Below are positions 26,634 through 36,637 of a stretch of 41,799 nt of DNA, one piece after another. The stretch comes from Moorena sp. SIO3I8. Lineage in GTDB: Bacteria > Cyanobacteriota > Cyanobacteriia > Cyanobacteriales > Coleofasciculaceae. The DNA is taken from the NCBI RefSeq assembly GCF_010692325.1, contig NZ_JAAHHW010000054.1, positions 1 through 41,799 on the forward strand. The letters are read 5' to 3'. Position 1 is the first letter of the stretch. Every line of letters begins with the position of its first letter. The notes beneath the pieces were generated by a model that saw nothing but the letters and a program-made list of their open reading frames with translations, was not told where the DNA came from and ran no database searches. The position numbers were made by a program, and so were the translations under genes.

Positions 26634-29600
26634 ATGGCAATTGATCGGGTACCTGGCGTTTATGTAATCTCTCAAGATGAGGTTGGAATTGTCTATAAAA
26701 AGTTTGGTAGTCCTTTACCATCTAATCGTCAAATTGCTCTTAATGGAGAAATGGGTTGGCAGGTTGATACTCTTGGTCCTGGACGACATTTCCGCTCTAG
26801 GTTGACCTATAAAGTTTTCAAACAAAAGGCTATACAGATTGATAAAGATGAAATTGGATTAGTAACAGCCAACGATGGTGCTTCTCTTCCCACAGGTAAA
26901 ATGTTTGGTAAAGTTGTCGAAGAATGTGATGACTTTCAAGATGGTCGTGCTTTTATCAACAATGGTGGTCAACGGGGTAGGCAGTTAGGTATTTTAAGAA
27001 ATGGTATTTATCGGATTAATCCTCAACTTTTTTCTGTTGAAATAAGGCCAATTACTCATATTAATGACTATGAAATTGGCTTAGTAGAAGCGAAAGATGG
27101 CAAGCCACTTCCGATTGGGGGAAAAACCTTTGGTGATGCTGTTGAATGCAACAATTTTGAGGATGCTCAAGCATTTATTGATAATGGGGGATCTAGGGGA
27201 CAACAGTTAAAGATTCTTACTACTGGCAAATACGCAATTAATACAGAACTTTTCAAAATTAAGAGAGTTGAACTTATCAAAATTGGAGTTAATGAAGTAG
27301 GGTTAGTGGAAGCAAGGGATGGTGAGCCACTTCCACTTGGTCAGAACTTTGGTAAAGTTGTTGAATGTGGCACTTTTCAGGACGCTGAAGCATTTATCAA
27401 AAACGGCGGTCAACAAGGGAACCAATTAGCAATTATTCCTCCTGGAATTCACTACATTAATACAGAGTTGTTTAAAGTTCACAATGTCCCACTAATTAAT
27501 ATTCGCTCAGGGGAGATAGGGCTAGTTATTGCTCAAGATGGTGCTGAACTACCACCAGGACAAATACTAGCTAAAGCTGTAGATTGCGAGAATTTTCAGA
27601 ATGCTGAAGCCTTTCTCAACAACGGTGGTCAACAAGGTAAACAGCGAGCAATTCTTACTGAAGGTTACTATAGAATAAACACTGAACTATTTACAGTAGT
27701 TACTACTGACAATGCCAAGCAATATGGACTGAATCCAGAACAATTAAAAGTTTACAGAGTTGAATCAGGTAAAATTGGTATTGTTACCACTTTTGATGGT
27801 AAGCCCTTACCAGGAGGGGACATTGCGGGAGCAGTTATTGAGGGACATAATAAGTTTCAGGAGCCACAGGAGTTTATTGATAAAGGTGGCTATCGAGGTT
27901 TACAAGAAGAATTTATCGAAGAAGGTTTTTGGAGTTTAAATCCTTGGTTTGTGGAAGTTGAACAAGTTCCTTTAACTAATATTAAAACTGGAACAGTTGG
28001 AGTTTTAATCTCAAATGTTGGTAAGAATAGCCAAGCAAATCAAGAGCAAACTACTTATGGTTCTCAGTTTAATATCGGGTATAAAGGGATTCAGAACATA
28101 CCAATAGAAGCTGGAACACATCCTATCAATACAAGAGTGAAAAGTATAGTAATAGTTCCTGTCCATGAAATAACTTTGGACTGGAGGACAGATAAAAATA
28201 AACCAGCAACCAACTACGATTCTAATTTGGAAACCTTAAAGCTTCGCTCAAAAGATGGCTTTATTTTGAATCTTGAAGTCACACAGGTTATTAATATTTA
28301 TCCCAAAAATTCCCCTAAAATGATATCTCGTGTGGGTTCACCAAATGCTAATAGTTATAAGCAAGTTGAGGAACAAGGAGGAGTTCTTAGCTGCTTGTCT
28401 AATGGTGCGGTTAAATATAGCTCCATTAAAAACCTTGTGAATAGGGTATTAGAACCGATGGTTGATAATTACTTCCGTAATTCCGCTCAAGAATATAATG
28501 TCTTAGACTTCTTACAACAACGGGATCAAATCCAGGAACGAGCTACAGAACATATCAAAAGTGCTCTTAATGCTTATGGTGTTGAAGCGGTTGGTACTTT
28601 TATCAACGAAATTGGCTTACCAGCTGAACTTCAACACCTAATACAGGCTCCAACAATTAAAGATAATTTAAATTCACTAGAAAAATTCTTGCTATGGTCT
28701 GCTGGTGCAGATCATGATATTTTGGCACAAAAAGAATGTTTGACAGAACGATATAAATATACAGCAATTGGTACCACGGTTTTGCTAACATCAACAACGG
28801 CTATTTTTTCCGGTGGTTATGCTCTTTTTACAGTATTCGGTTCTGTAGCAGCTTCTTGTGTAGGAGGAACTTTTTGGAGTTTTATAGTTTTTAACTTAGA
28901 TCGTTTTTTAATTTTAAGCTCTAAGAGAAGAAAATCGGATTCAAATTCAAACTTGCCATTTATTGCAGCAACAATTCTTCGATTAGTAATAGCCTTATTA
29001 TTGAGCTTTGTGGTTGCTAAACCCCTTGAATTGAGGCTTTTTGAAAAAGAAATTAACCAGAAAATAGAACAAGATAAAAATGAGATAAGAGAAGAAAAAA
29101 TTAACGAACCAATAAAAGAATTGGAGCAAGAAATTAAAGGATTAAATCAAGAAAAGGACAAGTATAAAAATGAATGGAAGGACGCCGAAAATGTGGCTAA
29201 TGCAGAAGCAGAAGGTACACAGGGAACAGGCCAATTTGGAAAAGGAATTGTTTATCAAGACAAACGAAATTATGCAGATGAAATAAAACAAAAATTTATT
29301 GAATTAGATAATAAAGTTAAGGATAAAGAGGAAAAAATAGAGAACCTTAGGCAAGAACGTAACCTGATTTTGCAGTCACCAGACAGTAACTTAGAACAAC
29401 TGAAAGAACAAATTGACAAAGAATCAGATGGCTTCTTAGCCCGTCTTGTTGCTTTAGAAGAACTATCTAAAGACGATCCGAATATTCGTAATATTAATTG
29501 GCTAATAACTGCCTTATTCGTCACTATTGAAATCTCACCTATATTAGTTAAACTTTTGTCTGGCAAAGGTCCTTATGATTATTTACTTGAACAGAAAGAA

Positions 29601-29711
29601 AGTCAGGAAAATTATAATGAATATTTCCGCATTAAAAAAGAACAAAGACTTCTATTATCTGAAGAATTATCAAAAAAATACATGAAAAAAATTAATGATT
29701 TTGAACAGTAA
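26634..29711 (+). CDS. Vault-like repeat + SPFH + DUF4407 membrane protein
   Basis: 1025 residues, intact. Residues 15-505 hold seven beta-type repeats starting near 15, 72, 146, 220, 293, 379 and 453. The five central ones share EIGLV-x-A-x-DG-x-PLP-x-GQ, FGKVVEC..F(Q/E)DA-x-AF(I/L)-x-NGG(Q/S)-x-G, and G-x-Y-x-INTELF. Next comes an SPFH/band-7 domain (about 505-665, opening VPVHEITLDWR, ending IGLPAELQHLIQAP). From 683 (LLWSAGADHDIL) it is DUF4407: two membrane helices (about 707-760) ending in FNLDRFLI, a third near 778-797, a charged coiled coil (about 803-943) and a fourth helix near 956-975. The order repeats, SPFH, helix/coil parallels eukaryotic major vault protein but with membrane segments added. 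No signal peptide, so repeats and SPFH are probably cytosolic. AT-rich compared with neighbours. Function unknown; a membrane-attached cage or scaffold is inferred. Confidence 0.8.
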   Translation: MAIDRVPGVYVISQDEVGIVYKKFGSPLPSNRQIALNGEMGWQVDTLGPGRHFRSRLTYKVFKQKAIQIDKDEIGLVTANDGASLPTGKMFGKVVEECDDFQDGRAFINNGGQRGRQLGILRNGIYRINPQLFSVEIRPITHINDYEIGLVEAKDGKPLPIGGKTFGDAVECNNFEDAQAFIDNGGSRGQQLKILTTGKYAINTELFKIKRVELIKIGVNEVGLVEARDGEPLPLGQNFGKVVECGTFQDAEAFIKNGGQQGNQLAIIPPGIHYINTELFKVHNVPLINIRSGEIGLVIAQDGAELPPGQILAKAVDCENFQNAEAFLNNGGQQGKQRAILTEGYYRINTELFTVVTTDNAKQYGLNPEQLKVYRVESGKIGIVTTFDGKPLPGGDIAGAVIEGHNKFQEPQEFIDKGGYRGLQEEFIEEGFWSLNPWFVEVEQVPLTNIKTGTVGVLISNVGKNSQANQEQTTYGSQFNIGYKGIQNIPIEAGTHPINTRVKSIVIVPVHEITLDWRTDKNKPATNYDSNLETLKLRSKDGFILNLEVTQVINIYPKNSPKMISRVGSPNANSYKQVEEQGGVLSCLSNGAVKYSSIKNLVNRVLEPMVDNYFRNSAQEYNVLDFLQQRDQIQERATEHIKSALNAYGVEAVGTFINEIGLPAELQHLIQAPTIKDNLNSLEKFLLWSAGADHDILAQKECLTERYKYTAIGTTVLLTSTTAIFSGGYALFTVFGSVAASCVGGTFWSFIVFNLDRFLILSSKRRKSDSNSNLPFIAATILRLVIALLLSFVVAKPLELRLFEKEINQKIEQDKNEIREEKINEPIKELEQEIKGLNQEKDKYKNEWKDAENVANAEAEGTQGTGQFGKGIVYQDKRNYADEIKQKFIELDNKVKDKEEKIENLRQERNLILQSPDSNLEQLKEQIDKESDGFLARLVALEELSKDDPNIRNINWLITALFVTIEISPILVKLLSGKGPYDYLLEQKESQENYNEYFRIKKEQRLLLSEELSKKYMKKINDFEQ

Positions 29712-34648: not shown

Positions 34649-36637
34649 CTACTCATATCTACTGCTTCTGGCAAGCGAGTCAGACTCAGCCCAATCAAGT
34701 ATCCTCTTAAATGTGCCATCTGAATAAACCATTACTTCAGAAGGTAACTCTTTTCCTGGGAAACCTGAAGCCATTACTATTCCATAAGCCCCTGTATTTC
34801 TAATTGCCAGGATATCTCCTTCTTGTACTTGAGGTAGTTTTCTCTCTTTGCCTAAAAAGTCTGATTGCAATACAGTATTGCCTCTTATGTCATAAGTTTC
34901 TGTCTCTCCTGTTTTACCAACAGCCTCAATTTCGTGGTATGCTCCATATATTCTTGGTCTTGGAAATTCTCCGAACCCTGCATTGATTGATATCTGCTTT
35001 TTACCAGTCAATTGTTTAACATTTGTTACTTTGGCATAAAGTGTTCCTGCCGTTGCTACAACCGATCTACCAGGCTCTATTTTTAATTTTACATCCCTTC
35101 CAAGATGGTCTGATAATTCTTTTGTTAATCTTGAATAGTATTCTCCTATTCCAGCAAAATCAAATTTTGATTCAGTTTTTCTTCCAGGTACGCCAAAACC
35201 ACTTCCAAAATTTACATATTCTAAATCTGGAAATTGCTTTGCACATTCCATCAAATAATTTGAAGAGTGTATTAAAGGTTCTGACTCTAAAATATTAGAT
35301 GCGAGATATCCGTGTATTTCATTGATTCTACATCCATAATCTTGAGCAATTTGTTTTACTCTTGAAAAATAGTCTTGAGGTATACCTACATCTGAATCTT
35401 TTGGGGAATTAGTATAACCTTCAGGAAGTTCGATATCTTCTTTCATTTTAATTCTAATTCCAAAATTACCCCCTGCATTCAATTTACAATATTTCTCAAC
35501 CTCTTCAACTGAATCCAAATTTACTTGCACTCCTTCTTGAACTAATCTCTCTAAACTTTCACTATCCAAACCAGTTGAAGTAAAAGAAATATCCCCATTA
35601 CTGAATCCCACTTTCTTAACTAAATCAAGTTCGTGTATAGAATTTATTTGAACAAAGCCTCCTAATTGTAGGATTTTCCTTAATACCTCGCTATTACTAT
35701 TACACATAACGGCATAATGTACCTGTTTATTTTCATAAGGTATTGAATCTATGATTAGTTCAAAGTTTCTTTTAATCTCATTTTCTTCATAAACATAAAG
35801 AGGTGTTCCATTCTCATTAATTATATCTAAAATATTTTGATTATTCAATTCATATTTACCACTCCATTCTAATTTGACTGATTTCATTCTTCCAAGTAAT
35901 TCATCTGATAATCTCTCAATTGGGAAATTTTCAGAAACAAAATTAACTCCGACTCTACTTATTCCTCCTTTTGTACAAACATCATCTATTACTCTAAATC
36001 CAAATTCTTTTAACAAATCAGCAGTCTGATATAATGCATCAAAAATTATTTCTCTACCTTTCTCTTCATTTATTCCTTTTTTTGTAATTGATGTCAGATA
36101 TCCTCTGATAAATTCAGAGATTATTGCAGGAGAACAACTTGCAAGATGCGTATATTCATCAAGATGTTCTTCAGGGACACAATAGACATTAGCAATTTGT
36201 GACAAATCTAAATAAACTCTTTCTGATTCTTGAGATTTATCTGCTACAAAAAGAATTGTGCCTTTTATTTTGTTTGTTATACTTGGGATTATTCTAACTA
36301 ATTTTATTTTGCCTAAATTTTCATAGTAAGAATTTCTTTCTATAGATGCGACAGAAGTTACCAGAGTTTTTTCATTCAACTTTCCGTTTAAGTCTTGATA
36401 TACATCAGGCAAATCCTGTGGTTTCACACACAGGTAAATATAATCACAATTAGAAATAACTTCTTGATTTGTCCCTTTATTTATTCCTGTATATATGACT
36501 ATTCTTTTTAATCTTTCAGTACTTCTATTTGATGCATAGATTTGATCGGGATCGGCTACTCCGCTATCTACAAATCTATTAATTAGCATTTCACCAATTA
36601 TTCCTGTTCCTATAAATCCATAATTTATCTTTTTCAT
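34649..36637 (-). CDS. Fusion: P5C-reductase-like domain + inactive-looking PLP decarboxylase-fold domain
   Basis: 662 residues, intact. Residues 1-260 resemble pyrroline-5-carboxylate reductase (ProC): Rossmann motif GFIGTGIIGEML, CVKPQD, LVRIIPS and CTKGGIS in place of VTSPGGTT. Residues about 262-655 resemble fold-III ornithine/diaminopimelate decarboxylases: TPLYVYEE opening, NFGSGFG in place of GGGFG, EPGRSVVATAG for phosphate binding, SDFLGKERKLP, and NTGAYGIVMASGF near the C-terminus. The lysine that binds PLP (normally YAVKAN) is Met311 in HYAVMCNSN, and the catalytic Cys position before SDFLGK is Val589. Both changes predict no ordinary decarboxylation. The gene is markedly AT-rich. 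A natural-product, regulatory or PLP-carrier role is possible; the function is unknown. Confidence 0.78.
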   Translation of the reverse strand: MKKINYGFIGTGIIGEMLINRFVDSGVADPDQIYASNRSTERLKRIVIYTGINKGTNQEVISNCDYIYLCVKPQDLPDVYQDLNGKLNEKTLVTSVASIERNSYYENLGKIKLVRIIPSITNKIKGTILFVADKSQESERVYLDLSQIANVYCVPEEHLDEYTHLASCSPAIISEFIRGYLTSITKKGINEEKGREIIFDALYQTADLLKEFGFRVIDDVCTKGGISRVGVNFVSENFPIERLSDELLGRMKSVKLEWSGKYELNNQNILDIINENGTPLYVYEENEIKRNFELIIDSIPYENKQVHYAVMCNSNSEVLRKILQLGGFVQINSIHELDLVKKVGFSNGDISFTSTGLDSESLERLVQEGVQVNLDSVEEVEKYCKLNAGGNFGIRIKMKEDIELPEGYTNSPKDSDVGIPQDYFSRVKQIAQDYGCRINEIHGYLASNILESEPLIHSSNYLMECAKQFPDLEYVNFGSGFGVPGRKTESKFDFAGIGEYYSRLTKELSDHLGRDVKLKIEPGRSVVATAGTLYAKVTNVKQLTGKKQISINAGFGEFPRPRIYGAYHEIEAVGKTGETETYDIRGNTVLQSDFLGKERKLPQVQEGDILAIRNTGAYGIVMASGFPGKELPSEVMVYSDGTFKRILDWAESDSLARSSRYE

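Follow-up and report, generated by a model that had tools for sequence, protein, structure and literature searches.

The contig NZ_JAAHHW010000054.1 of Moorena sp. SIO3I8, analysed over positions 1 to 41,799 (hereafter the window), carries on its plus strand, at 26634..29711, a complete open reading frame (ORF) of 1025 amino acids that begins with ATG and combines an arm of tandem beta repeats, an SPFH domain and the domain DUF4407. Judged from its alignments, this gene is an in-frame fusion, found in Moorena only among the genomes examined, of two proteins that are encoded in other cyanobacteria as neighbours in a cassette. Computation supports the architecture, the fusion, the likely topology and the cassette. 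By membership the product belongs to the SPFH proteins and carries DUF4407, and it is no major vault protein (MVP); as a way of working, a vault-like arrangement is the best available reading. On balance, we favour the view that this vault-like fusion forms a cytosolic, membrane-docked ring that would scaffold stress or infection signals. An initial annotation of the sequence had noticed repeats, SPFH and DUF4407 in a single ORF, on which the reading frame, Pfam and a repeat hidden Markov model (HMM) all agree; it had correctly proposed the arm and a cytosolic layout anchored at the C-terminus, and the fusion of two operon neighbours was not visible to it.

The other Moorena loci compared also have an open frame, with proteins that are 89-97% identical; in all, the frame is open in five distinct Moorena genomes, two pairs of records (L004 and G486; L006 and the G360 contig) being each counted once because they lie at the same place. 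Full-length identity is 97% to L004 and 89% to L005 and L006, the nearest named record being Moorena bouillonii PNG (97% across the whole protein), and the ratios of nonsynonymous to synonymous substitution (dN/dS) in the Moorena comparisons are 0.42, 0.38 and 0.61, the last resting on few changes. The SPFH domain (residues 450-677, 27981..28664) is recognized by Pfam as Band_7 (E 5.6e-23, 82.3 bits for a cut-off of 23.6) and also has an SPFH fold in the structure prediction, and DUF4407 (PF14362; residues 701-988, 28734..29597) is matched at E 8.9e-69 (232.5 bits, cut-off 31.3).

The junction between the two parts falls at residues 672-675 (28647..28658), as the Moorena protein aligns to SPFH-repeat homologs until residue 671 and to separate DUF4407 proteins from residue 676, which indicates the replacement of a helical tail of about 190 residues that the split SPFH-repeat protein possesses. 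Seven split cassettes were found, in Roholtiella (L007), Nostoc mirabile (L008) and the genomes G155, G312, G576, G579 and G560, all with the same order: a GUN4 gene (7/7), an SPFH-repeat gene (849-938 amino acids where intact, split over two overlapping frames in Nostoc mirabile) and, on the strand of the latter, a DUF4407 gene (402-445 amino acids), preceded in five of the seven by a 159-amino-acid gene with no Pfam family above cut-off. The first four were found with the Moorena protein and the last three via a DUF4407 search, so that the set is partly selected for DUF4407, not for GUN4. DUF4407 exceeds the cut-off in 6 of 386 cyanobacterial genomes and is fused or adjacent to an SPFH-repeat protein in four of these (G000, G360, G155, G312), G101 and G282 matching only in the DUF4407 part; a search with the Roholtiella DUF4407 protein hit 27 of 388 genomes from the order, frequently through members of a second clade. 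No DUF4407 match was obtained in G018 or G320, whose SPFH-repeat proteins have five (L041) and three units (L040), respectively. No GUN4 gene lies beside the fusion gene in the window, L185, L186, L004 or L005, and six GUN4 loci are present on other contigs of the Moorena genome. The tree gives moderate support (84/78) to a group made up of the Moorena protein, the cassette proteins and L040, subject to a long-branch warning.

The arm is composed of six tandem units over residues 9-446, the first being truncated, followed by a seventh that corresponds to the first half of the SPFH domain. The repeat HMM was built from residues 66-361, and its matches to its own four seeds (67-139, 140-213, 214-286 and 287-359, each with an independent E-value, i-E, of about 1e-41) are therefore circular: these are unit 2 (66-139, 26829..27050, 128.8 bits, also delimited in the unit alignment), unit 3 (140-213, 27051..27272, 129.5 bits), unit 4 (214-286, 27273..27491, 129.8 bits) and unit 5 (287-359, 27492..27710, 129.1 bits). 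Outside the seeds, the HMM recovers the divergent unit 6 (373-446, 27750..27971; match at 375-446, i-E 6.2e-16) as well as units in relatives, for example two in a Streptomyces plasmid protein (4.8e-27 and 8.2e-23). Its matches are weak and partial in unit 1 (9-65, 26658..26828; match at 12-34, i-E 0.012), which is the first beta unit of the structure model, and in unit 7 (447-511, 27972..28166; match at 480-508, i-E 0.07). Motifs are spaced 57, 74, 74, 73 and 86 residues apart along the arm, and five positions (G17, F41, G46, G49 and Q51 in reference numbering) are invariant in an alignment of 38 units from eleven proteins. The seven units of 57-86 residues initially described thus hold provided that the count includes both the truncated unit 1 and the N-terminal half of SPFH.

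The likeness to vaults lies in the fold. The predicted arm aligns with repeats R1-R7 of MVP across all seven units and agrees with the repeat-arm fold of that protein, bearing out the vault-like fold that had been proposed for it; the seventh unit aligns both to the MVP R1-R7 chain (to residue 511) and, from residue 447, to prohibitin. Rows from phages, plasmids and Lak were excluded from the structure alignment. The proposed MVP-like order stands for the repeat arm followed by an SPFH shoulder and fails for the coiled coil as a counterpart of the vault cap helix, as the coil is predicted to be extracytoplasmic and the helical tail belongs to the split SPFH protein and is absent in Moorena, DUF4407 taking its place at the junction. 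The sequence of repeat arm, SPFH shoulder and helical tail is therefore shared with MVP, the tail being found in the split homologs, whereas MVP carries nine repeats according to the available part of PMC13100048, against seven units in the Moorena protein, the last of them inside the SPFH domain, and a membrane domain closes the Moorena form. MVP itself builds a closed barrel of 78 subunits. Assignment to the MVP family is not supported, as the repeats have no detectable sequence homology with MVP: no Vault family is among the four families listed by Pfam up to E 1 for the protein, the MVP_shoulder family (PF11978) is matched in the genome only by another gene, and comparison of the arm with a profile of five cyanobacterial MVPs (hhalign) gives a probability of 0.2. 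With the whole split protein, the MVP profile, which excludes the second MVP-like protein of G018 (L184, 473 amino acids), yields one match of 48 coil columns (probability 92). The sole match of the repeat profile in the PDB up to E 10 is calmodulin (E 0.36).

That other gene (C190 of G000; L130:631-3267, minus strand) encodes a full-length MVP homolog of 879 amino acids, with E 2.7e-299 to a PDB MVP sequence; among 292 genomes of the phylum, 5 contain an MVP_shoulder match. Since this homolog is separate from the fusion protein, the Moorena genome carries two vault-type proteins, a full-length MVP homolog and a second, vault-like one, in contrast with the available parts of PMC9778704 and PMC11855390, where vaults are said to be lacking in prokaryotes or restricted to eukaryotes. 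Among viral structures, the top fold match is an 802-amino-acid prohibitin-domain protein of the giant virus Harvfovirus (BFVD A0A3G5A4K1; E 1.6e-11, 938 alignment columns).

DUF4407 is predicted to contribute about four transmembrane helices (TM1 to TM4, with boundaries set by the analyst) and a coiled coil. TM1 (711-733, 28764..28832; model helix 700-735) bears a conserved SGGYA..T motif; TM2 (735-757, 28836..28904; model helix 738-763) ends in NLDR, with D756 in 24 and R757 in 23 of the 24 rows of a DUF4407 alignment from which L161, L167 and L168 were left out (one as partial, two as broken or running off a contig end). In the same rows, R or K always occupies position 783 in TM3 (777-799, 28962..29030; hydropathy 772-800), and E or D position 966 in TM4 (950-972, 29481..29549; hydropathy 954-972). 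Hydropathy gives four helices in L007 and L043, and three segments in the window protein because its first two helices merge. The coiled-coil region (804-947, 29043..29474; model helices 804-860, 872-914, 919-931 and 934-947) sits inside DUF4407, between TM3 and TM4, and does not separate SPFH from the membrane domain, which corrects the initial annotation. The hydropathy segments and the DUF4407 alignment also support membrane attachment C-terminal to SPFH.

Class A penicillin-binding domains act outside the cytoplasm. In two loci (L164:7521-10973 and L165:2177-5692), DUF4407 continues into such domains, with an extra hydrophobic segment (threshold 1.4) in between, which, given four DUF4407 helices, places both ends of DUF4407 in the cytosol and the coil outside. 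The TM2-TM3 loop is net positive in 20 of the 24 rows, the other loops being without discrimination. In relatives with an N-terminal membrane segment, lysine and arginine are more abundant on the repeat side (39/40 phage and 21/21 cyanobacterial proteins), and no membrane segment is detected by hydropathy in the 849-amino-acid split homolog L038 or in L039. Taken together, these observations make a cytosolic arm the most likely arrangement, as initially proposed, in preference to extracellular repeats.

DUF4407 may be either an anchor or an effector. As an effector, it would permeabilize the membrane or form a channel, restrained by the SPFH-repeat scaffold and triggered by caspase, CHAT or TIR partners following an abortive-infection logic. 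The charged residues R783, E/D966 and D756-R757, which are conserved within the membrane helices or at them, would suit such a role, as would the CHAT-TPR proteins found near DUF4407 genes of the second clade (L154, L156-L159 and others; by Pfam in L154 and L156, by BLAST in the rest). However, the DUF4407 model (predicted TM-score 0.48) finds nothing convincing in fold searches and no PDB match at E<=0.001, so no channel fold is recognized, and the fusions to class A penicillin-binding domains, together with an OmpA-domain neighbour, fit an anchor or envelope organizer better; we consider the effector reading unlikely. The OmpA-domain protein in question (661 amino acids) lies near two DUF4407-like genes in L163:539-7061. 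A gene of about 185 amino acids also occurs near second-clade DUF4407 genes; the copy scanned, that of L154, has no Pfam family.

How might such a protein work? In the favoured reading of a membrane-docked ring, subunits would pack laterally into a cytosolic ring or half-barrel. The arms would be directed away from the membrane, where the SPFH end and DUF4407 would sit, and the coiled coil would lie on the opposite side of it. The ring would act as a scaffold that gathers or senses a cytosolic stress or infection signal and, by way of DUF4407, keeps it at the membrane or relays it there. The signalling-scaffold role is suggested by the GUN4, caspase, CHAT, TIR or vWA/kinase partners in homologous loci. 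A caspase-domain gene adjoins the GUN4 gene in Roholtiella, and likewise, by BLAST, in Nostoc mirabile; the GUN4 protein of L151 also bears a CHAT segment; repeats, SPFH, vWA and protein kinase are joined in one protein in L040:8078-11692, with an adjoining GUN4-like gene (BLAST); and a Streptomyces clavuligerus plasmid (L052:3624-7626) presents a TIR gene, a TIR-GUN4 gene and then the SPFH-repeat gene. The neighbourhood survey called for by the initial annotation thus finds stress- or defence-type genes beside some homologs (among them Roholtiella, L040 and Streptomyces clavuligerus) and no stress- or conflict-type neighbour beside the Moorena gene; up to E 0.1, PADLOC assigns the Moorena protein to no defence family. 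In Moorena, the link between arm and membrane would be permanent, and any GUN4 partner would act in trans.

Alternatively, the protein may be an ordinary flotillin-like microdomain scaffold without a defence role, whose repeats are spacers copied from the N-terminal half of SPFH and which resembles MVP only because stacks of SPFH-type beta units occur in both families. Relatives are indeed fairly common (47 of 386 cyanobacterial genomes, 43 of the 47 matching in the SPFH part, mostly in a short form), those on Rhizobium plasmids are annotated as flotillin family proteins, and the partly scanned neighbours of the short-form loci L045, L047 and L048 include no conflict-type partner (those of L045 do comprise a kinase-WD40 gene and a hybrid histidine kinase); the lack of a sequence link between repeats and MVP points the same way. 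Against this, the arm aligns with MVP R1-R7 over each of the seven units, the seven-unit proteins occupy a conserved GUN4/DUF4407 cassette, and L038 and L039, unlike the short relatives with their N-terminal segment, show no membrane segment by hydropathy, so that we hold this explanation to be rather improbable.

The SPFH domain is shared, by sequence and predicted fold, with prohibitin, stomatin, flotillin, erlin and HflK/C, a family that assembles into rings or domes at membranes and from which the Moorena protein differs by its long N-terminal repeat arm and by a membrane domain placed C-terminal to SPFH, canonical members binding membranes N-terminally according to the available text of PMC13100048. 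Flotillins (SPFH2) are further characterized by an NfeD-type operon partner (PMC2636767, available part). The orientation proposed here would match that of the membrane-bound vaults of Dictyostelium, in which, in the available text of PMC13100048, it is the SPFH/C-terminal side that is turned towards the membrane, the reverse of the arrangement in classical SPFH cages. DUF4407 itself is matched full length in the Moorena protein, where it is fused behind an SPFH-repeat protein, whereas it is a separate gene in most other loci and fused to penicillin-binding domains in two. Also close are the vWA-MoxR/VMAP ternary NTP-dependent conflict systems, among whose components Kaur et al. 2020 (PMC7159879, available part) count Band7-like scaffold domains and GUN4; L040 joins SPFH-repeat, vWA and kinase. 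In contrast, DUF4407 does not occur in the available text of PMC7159879, and the Moorena gene is without such partners. The literature searched gave no account of this architecture, most subscription papers and bioRxiv being outside the scope of the search, nor any work joining DUF4407 with SPFH or SPFH with huge phages.

The interest of the protein lies in vault-like arms and a membrane domain meeting at the same (SPFH) end, and in split homologs that adjoin signalling genes. If the ring reading is true, vault-like cages tethered to membranes are made by bacteria, perhaps to signal stress or defence, and would offer a tractable system in which to study the function and docking of such cages. 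A more speculative idea, to which we give little credence for now, is that vault-type arms are not exclusive to vaults: bacterial SPFH half-vaults would dock by their cap end as caspase/TIR/GUN4 platforms for immunity or cell death, the Moorena protein being a hard-wired, membrane-bound half-vault.

A two-unit SPFH-repeat protein also occurs in viral contigs of 5-482 kb (L049:7905-9800 and L090-L129, IMG/VR); all 40 stretches matched by pattern in IMG/VR were confirmed, each with two units and 39 with an N-terminal membrane segment. One further two-unit protein lies in a 642-kb phage record, and the DUF4407 part was matched by tblastn in 15 Prevotella Lak phage records (MK250016.1, which is L051, and 14 others). 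Elsewhere in the window, a gene on the minus strand (34649-36637) fuses a part resembling pyrroline-5-carboxylate reductase to one of the ornithine/DAP/arginine decarboxylase type.
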